IMG/VR virus record: IMGVR_UViG_3300048026_000011
Span: 1 to 34,203 of that record
Origin: a virus
Length of the DNA: 34,203 nt
Strand: one strand, 5' to 3'
Shown here: positions 7,589 to 23,327 of the stretch, one piece after another
Numbering within the stretch: the first letter of the stretch is position 1
Layout of the letters: each line of letters begins with the position of its first letter
Notes under the pieces: model-generated
Seen by the model: the letters and a program-made list of their open reading frames with translations, nothing else
Told to the model about the DNA's origin: nothing
Databases searched by the model: none
Position numbers and translations under genes: made by a program

Positions 7589-8563
7589 ATGGCAGGTATG
7601 ATTTCCTCAAACACAGACATGCAACGTCTGATTCGTTCAGAGGTTTACTCCTCAGAACTCAAAGAGATCCTTCGGGACGAAATGCAAGCACAGCGTTATG
7701 TACGTATGCTTGACGGTTTCCCAGATGGTGACACATTCACAATCCCAACAATCGGTGAAACAACTGTAGCCGATTACACTGAAGATGCTGCTGTATCGTA
7801 TGTCCCAATGGACACTGCAGAGTTCTCGTTCACTGTAGATAAGTACCTGCAGTCTGCTTCTTACATGACTAAGAAAGCTGCACAGGACTCGTTCTACAGC
7901 GCACAGCTTGAAGCACGGTTTGTTCCTGAGCAAGAACGTGCAATCATGGAGCACTTCGAAACAACAACCTTCGCTTCTCCTGAAGTCGGTGTTACTGCTA
8001 ACTCTGCAGAAACAACTGATGGTGTTGCACACCGTATCGCTGGTGGTAACGCTGGTCGTATTGAGCTTGCAGACTTTGCATTTGCTCGTTATGCACTTAA
8101 GAAGTCTAACGTACCTGATCGTGGTATGGTTGCTATCGTTGACCCATCCGTTGAGTACCAACTGAACACCTTGACTAACTTGACTAACGTGTCTAACAAC
8201 CCAATGTGGGAAGGTATTGTTCGTGATGGTATTGCAACTGGTATGCGCTTCGTTGCTAACGTCTACGGTTTCGATGTATATACATCTAACTACTTGAAGG
8301 CTACTGTCGCAGACGCAGCACTTCTCGAAGCAGATGGCACAACAGCCCAAGACTTCTCCAGTAACAACGGTGTTGCTAACTTGTTCTTCTCCTCTGATGC
8401 AGGTGCTAACCCATTCGTGGGTGCTTGGCGTCAAATGCCTGAGGTGGATTATGAGTACAACAAAGATTACCAACGTCACGAGTATGTAACTACTGCTCGT
8501 TACGGTGTTAAGAAGTACCGTCCAGAGGGTATCGTTTCAATCGTATCGAACCCAGCTGTATAA
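7589..8563 (+). CDS. Major capsid protein (T7 gp10-like, HK97 fold expected)
   Basis: A 324-residue protein with the features of podovirus capsid proteins: MQRLIRSEVYSSELKEILRD at the N-terminus, a domain around FPDGDTFTIPTIGETTVADY, then the long central helix region QDSFYSAQLEARFVPEQERAIMEH, and MVAIVDPSVEYQLNTL before GFDVYTSNYL. It would form the icosahedral shell after scaffold removal. GAAAGG upstream acts as the ribosome site. A strong hairpin follows the stop, as T7 has a terminator after its capsid gene. Codon choice is strongly biased in this gene, fitting very high expression. A 275-residue antisense frame here is treated as a shadow. Confidence 0.93.
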   Translation: MAGMISSNTDMQRLIRSEVYSSELKEILRDEMQAQRYVRMLDGFPDGDTFTIPTIGETTVADYTEDAAVSYVPMDTAEFSFTVDKYLQSASYMTKKAAQDSFYSAQLEARFVPEQERAIMEHFETTTFASPEVGVTANSAETTDGVAHRIAGGNAGRIELADFAFARYALKKSNVPDRGMVAIVDPSVEYQLNTLTNLTNVSNNPMWEGIVRDGIATGMRFVANVYGFDVYTSNYLKATVADAALLEADGTTAQDFSSNNGVANLFFSSDAGANPFVGAWRQMPEVDYEYNKDYQRHEYVTTARYGVKKYRPEGIVSIVSNPAV

Positions 8564-17739: not shown

Positions 17740-19779
17740 ATGGCACAAGATATATTCGCACCTAAATCATCCTTCGATATTGCATTCGAGAGACCACAAG
17801 AACCAGTAAGAGACAACACTGCTAAGATCCGGTCTGACTTTCAAGCAATGGCTCTTAACTCTCAAGCACGGGCCATACAAGGTCAAACACAGTATGAGAG
17901 TGCTGTCTTTAAAGGACTTAATGCTGGTATAAGTATTGCTGGTGATGGCATAGAAGCCTTCCAGAACTCTAGGGAGAAGGGTGCTATCAGTGACCTACTA
18001 AAAGCCATAGACGTTGCAGACCAAGAGGCTGAACAAAAAGGTATGTCCTACGAAAGCCGTAGAACTAAATACGGAGAGGCCATTCAAGACGCTGCAGACA
18101 GACTTCCCGGTGGTTATCGTGACTTAGCTAAGTACAACACTACCTTACAGGCTAAGACAGGCCTTTCGTTAAAAGAGATTGCAACAAGTCCTGAGCAGAC
18201 CATGCAAGAAACTATGATGAAAGATCCTGTGTTTATCACTGCCTACCAAGCATCTAGGATCTTAGAGCCTAACCTCACAGAAGACCAGAGGTTTGCTTAT
18301 GCTCAGAATGCAGCGGCAGAGAATGCAGCTGTAAGCCTAATGCAGACTACAGCAAACGTCAACGATCTGTCATCTTACTACGGCAAGACTAAGCCTCTAA
18401 TTGAAAACATGCAAAAGAACCTTCATACTGCTGTAGTTGCTGCTATTTCAATTAAAAAGGATAGTGGTCAACCTATTACGCCCACCGACATTGAAAATCT
18501 AGAGGTTGGTATTGCAGAAGCTAAACTACAGATTGAGATGGCTGTTCCTAACACTGTACCTCAGGAAGAGAGAGACAACGTAACTGAGTTTTTCTCTAAC
18601 CTAGATAACTTTATGACTCAGATTAAGGAGAGTAAAGATCCTGATAATATCACAAAAGGTATTGTATCTTCATTGGTACAGGGATCACAGAATTTCGGAG
18701 AAGCTATTGCATTTGCAAACATAGCCAGTATTGAAATGCTTACGTCAACCGCTGGTATTGACATTATGAAAACAGCCACTAAGAAACTATCAGATGGTGG
18801 AAGCACTGCAGCTATTTCAAGCCTAGGTAATCTAGACACTATCTTTAATGATATTCTAAGTAACAAGCCTGATGAAGTTGTTGGACCTAACACAATACTC
18901 TCTCCTGAGGAGATGGGTGCTTTGTTTGATACTACAAACATGACTGCAGAAGACTTGCTCACAGAACGTCAAACAGGTCTAGGCCTCTTGAAGGAACTCG
19001 AAGTAGGTGCAGTTGCTACAGATCTAGGACGTAAACAGCTTGTAGCTGGTGTAGCATCTGTAGTTAAGAGCCTTAACCACCTTGACTTCCACCAGACAGG
19101 TTCTCAGATCAAAGAGCTTGTAGAAGACTCAGGTCTCCTAGAGAAGATCAACATGCTTGAGAGTGTAGATAAACCAGCTGCTAACCAGATCCGTACCTTG
19201 TTGAACAGTGCAATTACTAACAACCTCCGCTTTGCTGAGAGCACACTGTCATCTATTGAGTCTGGAGCTAAAGGTATTTACGGTTACAAACTAGGCTTGG
19301 AGTGGGACGAAGCTACTAAAACTTACTATGCTACAGCATCTGATTTCATAAGAGCTGTGCAACGTGAGATTGGAAGTGAGGCACCTGCTACCAATTCTAA
19401 AGGTATGCCCCTTGTTAAAGGCACGTACCTTGGCACGTTTGGTGACATAGAAAAGGCCTACAAGTATCGTACTGTGATTGAGCAAACAAACAGTCTTCTT
19501 GATAAGACCCTTGTTGATGGAGTAGACACTAATCAAGAAACTATCATACAAGGAACTAGACTAGAACCTATCGTAGTTGAAAACGAAGAGGCCGTTGGTC
19601 TGGTGGCGGAAGGTCAGTGGTATAGTCTAGATGGCGTAGTAAAACCTAAGCCGTACACTATTCAAGGAGAAACAGATGACGAGCAACAAGCGTTCTTCGA
19701 TAAACTTGCGCCGGGTTCTGTGTTTATCAATCCTTCTGATGGCAGGTTGCTCACTAAACCAGAGCCAGAGTTTCAATAA
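17740..19779 (+). CDS. Internal virion protein, gp15-like
   Basis: A 679-residue, mainly helical and soluble protein beginning one base after the preceding stop. The N-terminus has PKSSFDIAFERPQEPVRDNT and a long Ala/Gln-rich helical region. The C-terminus (DDEQQAFFDKLAPGSVFINP followed by a short basic-acidic end) resembles the end of many phage internal proteins. T7 gp15 is 747 residues and acts with gp14 and gp16 in the ejection channel. In T7 the order is 14-15-16, while here the larger protein comes first, so the order is 14-16-15 if these assignments hold. The last 104 bases overlap a possible upstream start of the next gene in another frame. Confidence 0.72.
   Translation: MAQDIFAPKSSFDIAFERPQEPVRDNTAKIRSDFQAMALNSQARAIQGQTQYESAVFKGLNAGISIAGDGIEAFQNSREKGAISDLLKAIDVADQEAEQKGMSYESRRTKYGEAIQDAADRLPGGYRDLAKYNTTLQAKTGLSLKEIATSPEQTMQETMMKDPVFITAYQASRILEPNLTEDQRFAYAQNAAAENAAVSLMQTTANVNDLSSYYGKTKPLIENMQKNLHTAVVAAISIKKDSGQPITPTDIENLEVGIAEAKLQIEMAVPNTVPQEERDNVTEFFSNLDNFMTQIKESKDPDNITKGIVSSLVQGSQNFGEAIAFANIASIEMLTSTAGIDIMKTATKKLSDGGSTAAISSLGNLDTIFNDILSNKPDEVVGPNTILSPEEMGALFDTTNMTAEDLLTERQTGLGLLKELEVGAVATDLGRKQLVAGVASVVKSLNHLDFHQTGSQIKELVEDSGLLEKINMLESVDKPAANQIRTLLNSAITNNLRFAESTLSSIESGAKGIYGYKLGLEWDEATKTYYATASDFIRAVQREIGSEAPATNSKGMPLVKGTYLGTFGDIEKAYKYRTVIEQTNSLLDKTLVDGVDTNQETIIQGTRLEPIVVENEEAVGLVAEGQWYSLDGVVKPKPYTIQGETDDEQQAFFDKLAPGSVFINPSDGRLLTKPEPEFQ
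19664..19669 (+). promoter_or_regulatory. Ribosome binding site for the long lysozyme-like form
   Basis: AAGGAG six bases before the ATG at 19676 and inside the gp15-like coding region. It matches the Shine-Dalgarno consensus better than the site at 19782-19785 used by the short form. Confidence 0.45.
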
Positions 19780-20326
19780 GTGGAGTGATCTGATGGACTT
19801 TTCTAAACAAGCTACAGAATATGTACAAACTGCCGTACCTGAAAGCCTACAACCAGCCTCAGTTACTCAAACAACACTAGGTTCTGTAGAGGCTAAAGGG
19901 TACGACACACTGTTCAACAACTTTGAAACAAAAGAAACACCATTTAAAGGTTTCAAAGTCTCTAACCAAACAGTAGGTCAGCTGATTGACTTCTCTAAAC
20001 CGTCAGGTGCGTACGGAAAATACGTTAAACCTCGTCTACCTGAGAATACAGAGGCCTATAAGAAAGGTCTAACCTCTACTCCTATGGGTAAGTACCAGAT
20101 TATAGGTGGGACACTTCGTGACTTAGTTAAACGTATGAAATTACCTAAAGATACCGTGTTCAACAAAGCCACACAGGACCGTATGTTTCTTTTCTATGCT
20201 AAGGAAAGACTAGCTATGGCAAATACAATGGCTGGAAAAAGAAAAAATCTAAGAGGTATCTGGGAAGGGTTCAAGAAGGTAGATGACAAGACCCTTGATG
20301 CGCTAATAGAAGAAATAGGTGGTTGA
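19676..20326 (+). CDS. Alternative long form of the lysozyme-like protein with lipoprotein signal
   Basis: The same frame is open upstream to an ATG at 19676, giving 216 residues. This start has a textbook AAGGAG at 19664-19669, six bases before the ATG. The added N-terminus holds basic residues (NKRSS, LRR), the hydrophobic run VLCLSILL and then MAGCS, which fits a signal peptide with a lipobox and a lipidated Cys at residue 25, Ser at +2. All of this is written over the last 104 bases of the gp15-like gene in another frame. Either it is a real second product (a membrane-tethered muramidase) or a coincidence of overprinting. The evidence is sequence pattern only. Confidence 0.4.
   Translation: MTSNKRSSINLRRVLCLSILLMAGCSLNQSQSFNKWSDLMDFSKQATEYVQTAVPESLQPASVTQTTLGSVEAKGYDTLFNNFETKETPFKGFKVSNQTVGQLIDFSKPSGAYGKYVKPRLPENTEAYKKGLTSTPMGKYQIIGGTLRDLVKRMKLPKDTVFNKATQDRMFLFYAKERLAMANTMAGKRKNLRGIWEGFKKVDDKTLDALIEEIGG
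19782..19785 (+). promoter_or_regulatory. Ribosome binding site for the short lysozyme-like form
   Basis: GGAG seven bases before the ATG at 19793, just after the stop of the gp15-like gene. Its place in the intergenic gap and its good spacing support the short form as the main product. Confidence 0.55.
19793..20326 (+). CDS. Lysozyme-like / lytic transglycosylase-like protein (short form)
   Basis: A 177-residue protein from the ATG at 19793, which has GGAG at 19782-19785 seven bases upstream. The core reads VEAKGYDTLFNNFE, then VGQLIDFSKPSGAYGKYV, then TSTPMGKYQIIGGTLRDLVK, then VFNKATQDRMFLFYAKERL. The TPMGKYQI-GTL block followed by an F-x5-QDR-x9-RL helix is typical of lysozyme-superfamily peptidoglycan hydrolases of alphaproteobacterial phages. 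The Glu in VEAKGYD (residue 33 of this form) is the best catalytic candidate. It could be the endolysin or a virion muramidase that replaces the domain missing from the gp16-like protein. The first ten residues (MDFSKQATEY) resemble those of the next gene. A longer form from 19676 is listed separately. Confidence 0.72.
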   Translation: MDFSKQATEYVQTAVPESLQPASVTQTTLGSVEAKGYDTLFNNFETKETPFKGFKVSNQTVGQLIDFSKPSGAYGKYVKPRLPENTEAYKKGLTSTPMGKYQIIGGTLRDLVKRMKLPKDTVFNKATQDRMFLFYAKERLAMANTMAGKRKNLRGIWEGFKKVDDKTLDALIEEIGG

Positions 20327-20327
20327 T

Positions 20328-21140
20328 ATGGATTTCTCAAGTCAAGCTAAAGAGTTCAAACCATCTAAGGCTGCAGCTGTAGTCAGTGACACTGTTGAAG
20401 ATGTCGTTGAAACAGGGCAACAAGCTGTGAAAGATGTTGTTAATGCTGGGGAGCAGGCTGTATCTGCAGGCACTAGCATGTGGCAGACTGTTGTAGACGG
20501 TGCTGCAGAAGCCTTAGAGAAGGGTGTGGACTACGTAGCAGATGTTGCACCTAAGGTAACAGAAGCTGTTGGAGATATGAGATCTCCTCTTGATGTAGTT
20601 ACAGAAAGTTTATCAAGTGCAGGTGAAAGCCTTTCTAATATAGGTACAAGTGAGTTCAGGTTCTTCACTGGTAACTATTTCAAGCCCGGTCAAACTGCTA
20701 CTGAGGAAGACTTAAATGAAACTGACATTGAAACCTTAAAATCTGCAGTCCGTAAGGCTATGGCAGAGGGTAGGTCTCAGGTAGACTACAAAGATTTCTC
20801 AGAGGAAGAGGGTACAGTCCTTAAAGGTGGTCCGTTGGCAGGTCTCTTCAACCCAGAGTTACGTATGGCTCGTACATTAGGTGGTTTTAAGTTCTCTAAG
20901 GACGAACAGGGTAACACTATTATACGAAACACTTATAACTTTAACGAAGGTAAAAAACGTAAGGCTTATGTAAAGGCCATACAAGCCGGGGATGATGACG
21001 CTGCTAATGACATTCTGCTTAACTCTCTAGAAAATCCTGTAGAGGCTGCTAGTATCTTAGCCTATGCTAAACAACAGAAGCTAAAAGACGAAGGTAAACC
21101 TTTCGAGACAGAAATGGTAATTAACTTAGGAAAAGTATAA
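20328..21140 (+). CDS. Uncharacterised virion-associated-like protein
   Basis: A 270-residue protein whose ATG at 20328 lies one base after the previous stop; a GTG at 20319 is in frame but overlaps that gene. The N-terminus (MDFSSQAKEF) resembles the start of the preceding short lysozyme-like protein. Residues 15-95 are an Ala/Val/Glu-rich amphipathic helical region (DTVEDVVETGQQAVKDVVN). The C-terminal half contains FNPELRMARTLGGFKFSKDE and NTYNFNEGKKRKAYV, then a helical end closing with EMVINLGKV. I recall similar C-terminal segments in structural loci of other marine phages, but no function. The stop overlaps the next start (TAATG). It may be a further ejected protein; that is conjecture. 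Confidence 0.7.
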   Translation: MDFSSQAKEFKPSKAAAVVSDTVEDVVETGQQAVKDVVNAGEQAVSAGTSMWQTVVDGAAEALEKGVDYVADVAPKVTEAVGDMRSPLDVVTESLSSAGESLSNIGTSEFRFFTGNYFKPGQTATEEDLNETDIETLKSAVRKAMAEGRSQVDYKDFSEEEGTVLKGGPLAGLFNPELRMARTLGGFKFSKDEQGNTIIRNTYNFNEGKKRKAYVKAIQAGDDDAANDILLNSLENPVEAASILAYAKQQKLKDEGKPFETEMVINLGKV

Positions 21141-21583
21141 TGTTCGGACTACCTCTAGAACTAATCACAATGTTAGGTTCTACCGTACTAGGTGGGGTCA
21201 TGTCCATATGGGGACAGAACATTAAATCTAAACAGGCACAACAAGAGATGCTCATGGAACGAGCTAACTTTAATGCCAAGCAAGTAAACAAAGCTAGATC
21301 TGCAGGCAAGAACGATAAACACTTTGCATGGACACGTAGGCTTATAGCCTTGTCTGCAGTGTTTGCTATTATCGTACTGCCTAAGCTGGTTGCTGTGTTC
21401 TACCCTGATGTCAGTGTCATTGTAGGCTACACAGAAGTCGAAGGTGGCTTCATGAACTGGCTCTTCGGGGGTAATGAGGCAGTGAAGTGGCAATCTGCTC
21501 AAGGCTTTGTTATCACACCACTGGACACACACATTGTGTCTGCTATCGTAGGACTATATTTCGGAGCGGGGTTCACAAAGTGA
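21140..21583 (+). CDS. Three-transmembrane holin-like membrane protein
   Basis: A 147-residue protein with three hydrophobic stretches: residues 6-24 (ELITMLGSTVLGGVMSIWG), 66-88 (RLIALSAVFAIIVLPKLVAV) and about 128-146 (HIVSAIVGLYFGAGF). Between the first two lies a charged helix (KSKQAQQEMLMERANF). This layout resembles the three-TM holins of gene-transfer agents and rhodobacterial phages (GTA_holin_3TM-type). Its place after the lysozyme-like protein and before a one-TM coiled-coil protein supports a lysis role. The alternative is another inner-membrane protein. The start overlaps the previous stop (TAATG). Confidence 0.65.
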   Translation: MFGLPLELITMLGSTVLGGVMSIWGQNIKSKQAQQEMLMERANFNAKQVNKARSAGKNDKHFAWTRRLIALSAVFAIIVLPKLVAVFYPDVSVIVGYTEVEGGFMNWLFGGNEAVKWQSAQGFVITPLDTHIVSAIVGLYFGAGFTK

Positions 21584-21855
21584 AAAAAGATCAAGAGTGG
21601 CATTTATCGAAGTCAGTACCACTGACATTTGTTGTAGCAATATTTATACAGACAGCCTCTTTGGTATGGTATGTGTCCTCTATGGATAACACGATACGTA
21701 ACAACGAGAAAGAACTAATGCGTCAGGATGTACGTATACAATCCTTAGAGGGTGTAGTACAGACACAGGCTCTGACACTAGCACGTATAGATGAAAATAT
21801 AAAGTCTATCCGTAATATGATGGAAGCAGTGCAAAGAGCAAGAGACCCAAGGTAA
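21580..21855 (+). CDS. Small one-TM coiled-coil protein (i-spanin-like)
   Basis: A 91-residue protein. I choose the GTG at 21580, overlapping the preceding stop by four bases (GTGA) and preceded by GGAGCGGGG. The frame continues back to 21487, but that part lies over the holin-like gene and is Cys/His-rich junk. The N-terminal HLSKSVPLTFVVAIFIQTAS, followed by LVWYVSS, forms one membrane helix, followed by a charged helix (RQDVRIQSLEGVVQTQALTL) likely to be a coiled coil outside the membrane. This topology is that of an inner-membrane spanin subunit, and its neighbours are lysis-like. Similar proteins in rhodobacterial phages are usually left unnamed. Function is inferred from topology and position. 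Confidence 0.6.
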   Translation: MKKDQEWHLSKSVPLTFVVAIFIQTASLVWYVSSMDNTIRNNEKELMRQDVRIQSLEGVVQTQALTLARIDENIKSIRNMMEAVQRARDPR

Positions 21856-22325
21856 TGGACCCTCTTACTTGTATAGCTGCAGCCAGCACAGCCTACAAAG
21901 CTATCAAGAAAGGCTTTGAGGTTGGTAAGGAGATCTCTTCGATGGGGTCTCAGCTACAGCAATGGTCTAAGGCTATATCTGACTTGGACTACGCACACGA
22001 GAAAGCATCTAAACCTCCCATGTATAAGATGTTCTCTGATACCCAGAGTCAGGCCTTAGAGGCGTGGTCTTGTAAGAAGCAAGCCCAAGAAATGAGAGAG
22101 GAACTTCGTAGCTACATCAGTTTCGTACACGGGCCATCGGCTTGGGATGAAATCGTAAGGACTGAGGCTAAGATGCGTAAGGAACAAAGAGAACTGGTGT
22201 ATAAGAAACAAGAGTTCATAGATAACTGCATTAATTGGGGTGTAGGTTTAATCGTAGTTCTAGCTGGTGCAGCTGGTCTAGCTTTCGTTATATACTTAGT
22301 AGGTAAACAACAGGGGAAATGGTAA
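21855..22325 (+). CDS. Uncharacterised C-terminally anchored membrane protein
   Basis: A 156-residue protein starting at a TAATG overlap. Residues 1-30 (MDPLTCIAAASTAYKAIKKG, then FEVGKEISSMG) are followed by a long charged helical part. A single hydrophobic helix lies near residues 128-149 (NWGVGLIVVLAGAAGLAFVI). It ends with a short basic tail. Proteins with this MDPLT...KKGFEVGKEI opening occur in many marine phages without a known role. It could be part of a lysis or membrane cassette, or a virion protein. The stop overlaps the following gene. Confidence 0.68.
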   Translation: MDPLTCIAAASTAYKAIKKGFEVGKEISSMGSQLQQWSKAISDLDYAHEKASKPPMYKMFSDTQSQALEAWSCKKQAQEMREELRSYISFVHGPSAWDEIVRTEAKMRKEQRELVYKKQEFIDNCINWGVGLIVVLAGAAGLAFVIYLVGKQQGKW

Positions 22326-22588
22326 TGGCTAAGAAAGATCCAAGACTAGAACGAGCAGGTGTGTCAGGCTTCAACAAACCTAAATCTACACCAAGTCACA
22401 AGACTAAATCTCATATTGTTGTAGCTAAGGTGGGTGACCAGATCAAGACAATCAGGTTCGGTCAGAAAGGTGTTAAAGGTAGCCCTGATGGGTCAGCCCG
22501 TAACAAAGCATTCAAGGCAAGACACAAGAAGAACATTGCTAAAGGTAAGATGTCTGCAGCCTATTGGGCTAACAAGGTGAAGTGGTAA
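22325..22588 (+). CDS. Small basic conserved marine-phage protein
   Basis: An 87-residue lysine-rich protein. The ATG at 22325 overlaps the previous stop (TAATG) and AGGGG lies eight bases upstream; an in-frame ATG at 22319 is too close to that site. The sequence has GVSGFNKPKSTPSHKTKSHI, then a beta hairpin IVVAKVGDQIKTIRFGQKG, then FKARHKKNIAKGKMSAAYWA. I recall this combination as a widely conserved protein of unknown function in marine phages, including cyanophages. It opens a series of basic proteins at the end of the late arm. Nucleic-acid contact is likely from charge alone. No function has been established to my knowledge. Confidence 0.75.
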   Translation: MAKKDPRLERAGVSGFNKPKSTPSHKTKSHIVVAKVGDQIKTIRFGQKGVKGSPDGSARNKAFKARHKKNIAKGKMSAAYWANKVKW

Positions 22589-22776
22589 TGTGGTTAGCTG
22601 TAGTCATGGCCTGTCAAACCCTTGAGGTTTCCTCTTGTGTTACTATGGGCAACGAGAATAACTTATGGTATACCGAAGAAGAGTGTCAGCTTGACGCTGT
22701 TAACATGGCTGTGACACTAATGAATAAAGGTATCTATGCTAGGCCTAATTGTTTTAAAGTAGGGGAGAGTGTATAA
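22588..22776 (+). CDS. Small four-cysteine protein, possibly exported
   Basis: A 62-residue protein starting at a TAATG overlap (an in-frame upstream ATG at 22582 would add two residues). The first eight residues are hydrophobic (MWLAVVMA) and run into Cys 9. Further Cys at 17, 33 and 55 could form two disulfides, which would need an oxidising compartment. The core reads LWYTEEECQLDAVNMAVTLM then ARPNCFKVGESV. No basic n-region precedes the hydrophobic stretch, so a classical signal peptide is doubtful. Its neighbours are basic and lack this pattern. Function unknown. Confidence 0.65.
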   Translation: MWLAVVMACQTLEVSSCVTMGNENNLWYTEEECQLDAVNMAVTLMNKGIYARPNCFKVGESV

Positions 22777-22949
22777 TGGCTAGTCCTAAACCATCTAACC
22801 CGGCCTTGTGGTCACGAGCTAAGGCAGCTGCTAAGAAAAAGTACAAGGTGTACCCCTCTGCTTATGCAAATGCCTATGCTTCTAAGTGGTACAAAGAGAA
22901 GGGTGGTAAGTGGTCCGGTAAGGACAACAGAGTAAAGAGGAAAGCATAA
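22776..22949 (+). CDS. Very small lysine-rich protein, 57 aa
   Basis: A 57-residue protein from the ATG at 22776, overlapping the previous stop (TAATG), to the TAA at 22947-22949, which overlaps the next start in the same way. The sequence begins MASPKPSNPALWSRAKAAAK and continues KYKVYPSAYANAYASKWYK before a basic tail. This NPALWSRAKAAAKKKYKVYP-type opening is one I recognise from small proteins of marine phages and giant viruses. It is strongly basic (about 15 Lys plus Arg). It may bind DNA or act in the virion. The overlaps on both sides argue that it is real despite its size. Confidence 0.75.
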   Translation: MASPKPSNPALWSRAKAAAKKKYKVYPSAYANAYASKWYKEKGGKWSGKDNRVKRKA

Positions 22950-23173
22950 TGCCTAAAGGAGGACTAGGTAAGTGGTTCGGAGAAGACTGGCGAGATGTAA
23001 AGACAGGTAAGGCCTGTGGTCGCAAGTCAGCTACGAAGAGCAAGAGGGGTTACCCTGCATGTCGCCCGAAGGCAGTAGCTGGTAGCATCTCTAAAAAGGA
23101 GGCGGCTAAGAAGACTGGACCTAGAAGAGTCAAGTGGTCTACAACAGCATCAGGAAAGAAAAGGAAGAAATAA
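22949..23173 (+). CDS. Small basic protein with GLGKWFGE/W motif (DUF5872-like)
   Basis: A 74-residue protein starting and ending in TAATG overlaps. It begins MPKGGLGKWFGEDWRDVKTG, then KACGRKSATKSKRGYPACRP, and ends in KWSTTASGKKRKK. The pattern GLGKWFGE-W-D-KTGK-CGR-S...YPACRP is a conserved small domain seen in marine phages and large algal viruses (DUF5872-type, named from memory). Two cysteines about 15 residues apart (residues 23 and 38) could bind metal or form a disulfide. High Lys/Arg content suggests contact with nucleic acid or the capsid interior. Function is not established. Confidence 0.75.
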   Translation: MPKGGLGKWFGEDWRDVKTGKACGRKSATKSKRGYPACRPKAVAGSISKKEAAKKTGPRRVKWSTTASGKKRKK

Positions 23174-23274
23174 TGCCATACAAGAACGGAAAGAAAATGC
23201 CCTACGGTAAAGGGGCTGTAAAAAAGAAGCCAGCTATGGCTAAGAAGCCAATGCTTAAGAAGAAAAAGAAGTAA
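23173..23274 (+). CDS. Micro-protein, 33 aa, lysine-rich
   Basis: A 33-residue frame from the ATG at 23173 (TAATG overlap with the preceding gene) to the TAA at 23272-23274, followed nine bases later by the terminator. It reads MPYKNGKKMPYGKGAVKKKP and ends in a run of lysines. The MPYKNGKKMPYGK opening contains a repeated MPY-GK element and resembles small Lys-rich peptides that close late operons in marine phages. Net charge is extremely positive. It could be DNA-condensing or simply a leftover frame. The shared stop/start arrangement is the main support. Confidence 0.55.
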   Translation: MPYKNGKKMPYGKGAVKKKPAMAKKPMLKKKKK

Positions 23275-23282
23275 GCAATAAA

Positions 23283-23327
23283 AAACCCCGCTAAGGATTG
23301 AGTTCCTTGGCGGGGTTTCTTTCTTTT
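23283..23327. terminator. Bidirectional Rho-independent terminator between the two arms
   Basis: A 14-base stem (AAACCCCGCTAAGG at 23283-23296 with CCTTGGCGGGGTTT at 23305-23318, one G-U wobble) and an 8-base loop. On the + side it is followed by TCTTTCTTTT; on the - side its complement is followed by a T-rich run from the A-tract at 23279-23285. It sits between the last late gene (ending 23274) and the stop of phoH (23326), so it can end transcription from both converging arms. Confidence 0.92.

Follow-up and report, generated by a model that had tools for sequence, protein, structure and literature searches.

The last codons of a gene for a gp15-like internal virion protein probably double, in the +1 frame, as a translated membrane leader for the peptidoglycan hydrolase encoded downstream, and the two starts of the hydrolase gene would then yield an anchored and a soluble enzyme. 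We came to this view from a 34,203-nucleotide (nt) stretch of viral DNA, positions 1 to 34,203 of the IMG/VR record IMGVR_UViG_3300048026_000011 (hereafter the window), in which the enzyme is lysozyme-like. Its frame is open from the ATG at 19676 to the stop codon at 20324-20326, giving a long form of 216 amino acids (aa), and the leader shares 104 nt with the gp15-like gene. A first-pass annotation of the window had described the two starts with their Shine-Dalgarno (SD) sequences and spacings as well as the out-of-frame overlap, and all of these were confirmed (Table 1). The 39-residue extension of the long form (MTSNKRSSINLRRVLCLSILLMAGC-SLNQSQSFNKWSDL) contains the basic pairs K5R6 and R12R13, the hydrophobic segment VLCLSILLMAG and Cys25; the KR/RR residues, VLCLSILL run and MAGCS lipobox of that annotation are likewise in place.

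By synteny and by similarity to CRP-4, the window phage is of the Cobavirinae/Veravirus type: CRP-4 carries a full-length homologue of the gp15-like protein (78% identical), and identity amounts to 83% for the long form of the lysozyme and 93% for the gp16-like C-terminus. About 80 related loci were gathered by the lysozyme and by the gp16-like gene two genes upstream of it, the C-terminus of the latter serving as query because the gp15-like protein alone gave few relatives, and the named phages CRP-4, CRP-5, ICBM1-3, SIO1, P12053L, CW02, KZY1 and T5S1 were added. Throughout these loci, the gp15-like gene is located between the gp16-like gene and the lysozyme gene. Clustering at 60% identity over the last 60 gp15 residues produced 35 clusters, with the next gene in the +1 frame in 26 and in another frame in nine. 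In most relatives the frame behind gp15 reaches back into gp15 and opens with a methionine, basic residues and a hydrophobic stretch, as in Siovirus (MKKVLISITVYLVVLILLIPQ), CRP-5 (MKKPILWFLSVLIIVLVLNPR), P12053L (MQRLTVFLSVLTLLTLLMADFF) and the contig L033 (MRKLLLIIFLAALFSLIPMTGC); the extension recurs in Veravirus, Siovirus, CRP-5, ICBM2, P12053L and dozens of IMG/VR contigs.

An ATG-started, stop-free and hydrophobic +1 leader was found in 22 of the 26 in-frame clusters, compared to 1.69 expected when the gp15 C-terminus was recoded synonymously with the codon usage of each gene (P=2e-26). None of the nine off-frame clusters has such a leader, and some of these (L074-L079, L078, L097) share the gp15 C-terminal motif. 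Three of the four in-frame clusters without a leader (L052, L053, L058) have no recognised hydrolase behind gp15, a separate endolysin-like gene coming next, while the fourth (L060) has the hydrophobic segment and narrowly misses the ATG. Whenever the gene behind gp15 encodes a peptidoglycan hydrolase in the +1 frame, no stop interrupts the overlap, which nearly always contains an ATG and a hydrophobic stretch, and in every leader-bearing cluster the hydrophobicity lies above that of synonymous recoding. In the window, the SD duplex energy of the long start is -8.3 kcal/mol, which beats 99.8% of the other +1-frame ATGs within gp15 genes; across the relatives the mean is -5.2 versus -1.7 for control +1 ATGs (P=1e-15), the SD being strong in most lineages. 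As judged by these comparisons, the leader and the upstream start are conserved and selected beyond the demands of the gp15 frame. A comparison of homologues, as suggested in the first-pass annotation, favours the 19676-type start and its leader, with an SD in most lineages and a Cys25 that is lineage-specific; the stops, or the loss of the basic and hydrophobic pattern, that it had named as grounds for giving up the idea are not what most in-frame clusters contain.

A number of observations weigh against this interpretation. The conserved gp15 motif K/Q-G-x-T-D-E in part yields the ATG and the SD, giving GAT-G (an ATG in the +1 frame) and a Leu-rich +1 peptide, which makes a by-product of gp15 coding the main rival to examine. 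For the window alone, synonymous recoding produces an ATG-started, open and hydrophobic +1 leader with P=0.06 and, given an open frame, a lipobox arises under recoding in the window clade with P=0.007-0.08; a single sequence is hence insufficient to settle the matter. The long ATG is devoid of an SD in L023, L025, L112, L068, L119 and L106. Synonymous change in the overlap is suppressed weakly overall (0.19 vs 0.23, P=0.04) and more clearly in Veravirus pairs (7/91 vs 323/1523) and, as the suppression is weak, we do not lean on this test. Two clades, L039/L121 and an off-frame GH19 clade, manage with a short form alone, and these clades also support the short start. Finally, the clusters share descent and the P values are therefore rough, although the contrast with the off-frame controls does not hinge on them.

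The short start is independently supported by comparison across lineages. The short ATG follows the gp15 stop after 1, 4, 7, 13 or 16 nt, with the +1 frame kept every time, and its SD duplex energy (-5.9 kcal/mol in the window) has a mean of -5.2, stronger than at control ATGs (P=2e-23). Moreover, the N-terminus of the short form agrees, within each lineage, with that of the next gene (mean score 29.1 vs 10.9, reached in 0/2000 shuffles), as in the pairs MDFSKQATE/MDFSSQAKE, MPKSSWNTG/MAKSSWNTG, MGKDYSDQA/MAKDYSKVQ and MASSWNKGR/MASSWNKGR; the identity starts exactly at the methionine in both genes, as expected for a true N-terminus. The two N-termini change together across lineages (SSWN, KDYS, DFSSQ), and the shared segment may serve to direct the proteins to the virion or act in translation. 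What is known of internal-start endolysins, a second in-frame start with its own ribosome-binding site, is found here together with this N-terminal tag. The first-pass annotation had suggested that one gene makes both a soluble and a lipid-anchored muramidase; the upstream start with its leader and the internal start each hold up, the lipid anchor is a lineage variant only, and we infer that two products, one anchored and one soluble, are likely. Deposited annotations vary, SIO1 gp24 having the long ATG, ICBM3 an intermediate start, and ICBM1, CRP-4, CRP-5, ICBM2 and P12053L the short one. Of note, gp25, the gp15-like gene of SIO1, is shorter in the deposited genome NC_002519 (L013, 2116-3810) than in the SIO1 isolate FJ867910 (L012), a difference suggestive of a frameshift introduced by sequencing.

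Table 1. Features of the gp15-lysozyme junction and the adjoining gene in the window
Feature	Position	Strand	Remarks
gp15-like internal virion protein, 679 aa	17740..19779	+	last 33 codons overprinted in the +1 frame by the leader
AAGGAG Shine-Dalgarno, long form	19664..19669	+	6-nt gap to ATG 19676
Leader, long form only	19676..19792	+	basic n-region, hydrophobic core, lipobox L-M-A-G-C25, short linker
Cys25 codon TGC, predicted lipidated residue	19748..19750	+	Ser at +2
GGAG Shine-Dalgarno, short form	19782..19785	+	immediately 3' of the gp15 stop; 7-nt gap to ATG 19793
Short form, predicted 177-aa soluble lysozyme-like enzyme	19793..20326	+	N-terminus MDFSKQATE; PHROG_90; annotated CRP-4 start
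Next gene, 270 aa	20328..21140	+	N-terminus MDFSSQAKE; N-terminal tag matches the short lysozyme

The first-pass annotation had tied the leader to one lysozyme. It is present at the window lysozyme, yet in family searches the same overprinted leader precedes SLT, Amidase_2, GH108, GH19, Phage_lysozyme (GH24), Pesticin-like, CHAP and Hydrolase_2 enzymes as well; by this assignment, the leader is a module with at least eight unrelated enzyme families behind it. The window lysozyme itself matches PHROG_90 (lysis/endolysin, E=2.7e-10) and PHROG_14527 (E=7.5e-16), and its family has an invariant E72 and a G-[KR]-Y-Q motif. Its assignment to a lysozyme fold is less secure: no Pfam domain was found, a search of the PDB with the lysozyme sequence gave no match, and an AlphaFold2 model had a predicted local distance difference test score (pLDDT) of 65 and returned nothing credible from the PDB with Foldseek. 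Lambda R (GH104) is a weak hhalign match (probability 17%, E=0.0014 for a single comparison) over the region of G-[KR]-YQ and SQD. A family search among 18 other window proteins detected no second endolysin, about 6 kb of the genome lying outside the window.

The segment from Met1 to Cys25 has the makings of a bacterial lipoprotein signal, with a basic n-region, an h-region and a lipobox within ~30 residues. Cys25 and the lipobox are kept in the close relatives of the window (L001, L002, L007 and CRP-4) and also occur in four other clusters; a lipobox is present in five of the 26 clusters against ~0.2 expected from recoding (two stop-ridden clusters left out). Most cobaviruses carry the same leader without the cysteine, and these leaders, as predicted from their composition, are plain signal anchors. 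Since the lipobox is enriched in five clusters and the cysteine is absent elsewhere, the predicted lipid anchor is a genuine but lineage-specific refinement, and the lipid-anchored enzyme of the first-pass annotation is thereby narrowed to a variant of certain lineages. On average the leader has ~3 K/R before the core and ~1 after it, which fits an N-in, C-out orientation.

A lipobox in this position might also suggest a substitute for a missing spanin, an idea that we rejected as there was no clean complementarity across the loci compared. The leader has a lipobox and no spanin is recognisable in the window, CRP-4, L022-L025 and L065 (the lipobox being imperfect in L023 and L025), both are found in L033, L034, L036 and L038, and neither in L003, L005 and CRP-5. 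Downstream of the lysozyme (20319-23326 in the window), no lipobox spanin was recognised in the window, CRP-4 or CRP-5, in contrast to Siovirus, ICBM2 and P12053L. Salinivibrio phage CW02 (L046, 9151-9585) has a lipoprotein u-spanin (MKRLRQVLLMLGMVLALSGCSA) whose gene overlaps, likewise in the +1 frame, the 3' end of its gp15-like gene; this would be another overprinted lipobox in that location, of independent or ancestral origin.

How the long form would be held in the membrane leads to an alternative that concerns this form only and is compatible with two products, namely that it is a classical signal-arrest-release (SAR) endolysin released upon depolarisation. An uncleaved-looking N-terminal hydrophobic segment with a basic n-region on an endolysin is in line with this, and the GH108 members L051 and L063, whose family has SAR endolysins among its known members, carry the leader. 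SAR domains, however, are weakly hydrophobic transmembrane segments rich in Gly and Ala, and the leader cores are not: they contain 0.7 Gly+Ala and 10 L/I/V/F per 15 residues. A core this rich in Leu, Ile and Val makes the leader look like a stable signal or anchor and unlike a SAR domain, and in the five clusters with a lipobox the latter speaks for lipidation. We consequently find a SAR endolysin rather doubtful.

It is less probable still that only the long form is made, as an exported and anchored endolysin in which the internal ATG is simply a conserved methionine following the leader. The SD of the long start is the stronger one (in the window by the energies given above; in Siovirus -7 to -8 vs -0.4), and the deposited SIO1 gp24 has the long start. 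Such an explanation does not account for a short N-terminus that co-varies with that of the next gene exactly from the methionine, for a short start that lies 1-16 nt past the gp15 stop and has, in most lineages, an SD of its own, or for the clades with the short start alone.

The converse, that only the short form is made and the hydrophobic +1 frame arises incidentally from gp15 codons under conservation, appears very unlikely. The conserved C-terminus of gp15 (T-D-E..F..LP.GS.FI[DN]P.DG) does ease the appearance of an ATG and a hydrophobic +1 peptide, with a null probability of ~0.06-0.2 per lineage, and several annotations use the short start; however, 22 leaders stand against fewer than two expected, the off-frame controls with the same gp15 motif have none, the hydrophobicity exceeds recoding wherever there is a leader, and CRP-5 keeps MKKPILWFLSVLIIVLVL despite a different gp15 C-terminus. 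Ribosomal frameshifting from gp15 into the +1 frame, yielding a gp15-lysozyme fusion like the natural ones of KZY1, T5S1, L040 and L041 and in keeping with a Siovirus +1 frame that is open for ~50 codons upstream of the ATG, was set aside as highly improbable, because a +1 stop lies within four codons upstream of the ATG in 11 of ~24 clusters whereas the path from ATG to short start is always open, the frame begins with an SD, an ATG and a basic pattern, and no common slippery site was apparent by eye.

If the gp15-like gene indeed encodes a leader for the downstream hydrolase, initiation at ATG 19676 would give a long enzyme that the Sec pathway exports, placing the catalytic domain in the periplasm. 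In the window phage this form would probably be lipidated at Cys25, the Ser at +2 favouring the outer membrane as for host MltA-type lipoprotein lytic transglycosylases, while in most relatives it would be held by an inner-membrane signal anchor. A soluble enzyme of the cytoplasm would come from ATG 19793, probably to some extent through ribosomes that re-initiate on leaving the gp15 stop; it could simply be kept until the holin acts or, in a more speculative scenario, be incorporated into the particle along with the internal virion proteins. From this we infer a division of labour, and it is plausible that the short form acts at entry and the long form at lysis. A more specific version, which we put forward tentatively and consider somewhat less probable than not, is that virions carry the short tagged form as an internal (ejection) protein for entry, that the overprinted leader exports a membrane- or lipid-anchored form for lysis, and that the leader is a reusable out-of-frame module retained while the enzyme was swapped among at least eight families. 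Indirect support for a soluble form in the virion comes from fusions of the domain to the gp15-like protein and from a homologous domain in a virion protein of N4-like roseophages: RPP1 gp63, equivalent to DSS3phi2 gp61, was identified in virions by mass spectrometry and has been noted as similar to the C-terminus of SIO1 gp24 (PMC4193335). KZY1, T5S1, L040 and L041 carry the lysozyme domain within their gp15-like protein, and such fused loci lie in distant Zobellviridae-like phages at L015 144-2531, L045 7421-10057, L040 2291-4909 and L041 2168-4966. The presence of the same domain inside the gp15-like protein of these phages suggests that the cobavirus lysozyme gene arose by a split from an internal virion protein.

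Endolysins made as two polypeptides from in-frame internal starts, such as Lys170, CTP1L and LysIME-EF1 (PMC9430671), likewise have one gene, two in-frame starts with their own ribosome-binding sites and two isoforms. Those belong to phages of Gram-positive bacteria and their short form is the C-terminal wall-binding part, whereas phages of the window type have Gram-negative hosts, both forms would contain the whole enzyme and what the longer one adds is an export leader written over another gene; the survey in question excluded phages of Gram-negative bacteria as unlikely to carry such starts (PMC9430671). The SAR and signal-peptide endolysins of P1 (Lyz), phage 21, Mu (gp22), N4 and fOg44 share an N-terminal hydrophobic export segment, but the window-type leader differs by its LIV-rich rather than Gly/Ala-rich core, an occasional lipobox, the out-of-frame overlap with a virion gene, its occurrence on unrelated enzymes and the alternative leaderless start. 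In the Rz/Rz1 spanins, too, the +1 frame of another gene encodes a lipoprotein signal; Rz1, however, is a small structural o-spanin within a lysis gene, while the leader described here is joined to an enzyme and its overlap is with a virion gene. With the host lipoprotein lytic transglycosylases MltA, MltB and MltC, the enzyme has in common that it is predicted to be an outer-membrane-anchored, periplasm-facing enzyme that cleaves peptidoglycan, yet it is a phage product of a different fold family with a second, leaderless form. In our searches of the open-access literature, we came across no earlier description of a virion gene overprinted with an export leader.

The annotated cobavirus endolysins (ICBM1, CRP-4, SIO1 gp24) represent the same gene and locus as the window lysozyme. 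Lysis by cobaviruses, marine phages that are abundant worldwide, has been described as a canonical holin-endolysin pathway since the enzymes seemed free of membrane-anchoring domains (PMC6775973). Given the upstream starts that had been missed, an exported enzyme with a membrane or lipid anchor may instead be the rule in most cobaviruses, possibly with a soluble partner for entry. An export signal in the frame of another gene, kept while the enzyme behind it is repeatedly replaced, would be a rare and statistically clean case of overprinting, and more generally the choice of start codon in overlapping phage genes can hide localisation signals.

Elsewhere in the window, a holin-like protein (MFGLPLELITM..., 21140-21583) is strongly conserved and its gene is found directly behind gp15 in some contigs (L084, L087, L101). 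On the minus strand, an open frame of 275 aa (7652-8479) runs antisense to the capsid gene and is probably an artefact of codon usage.

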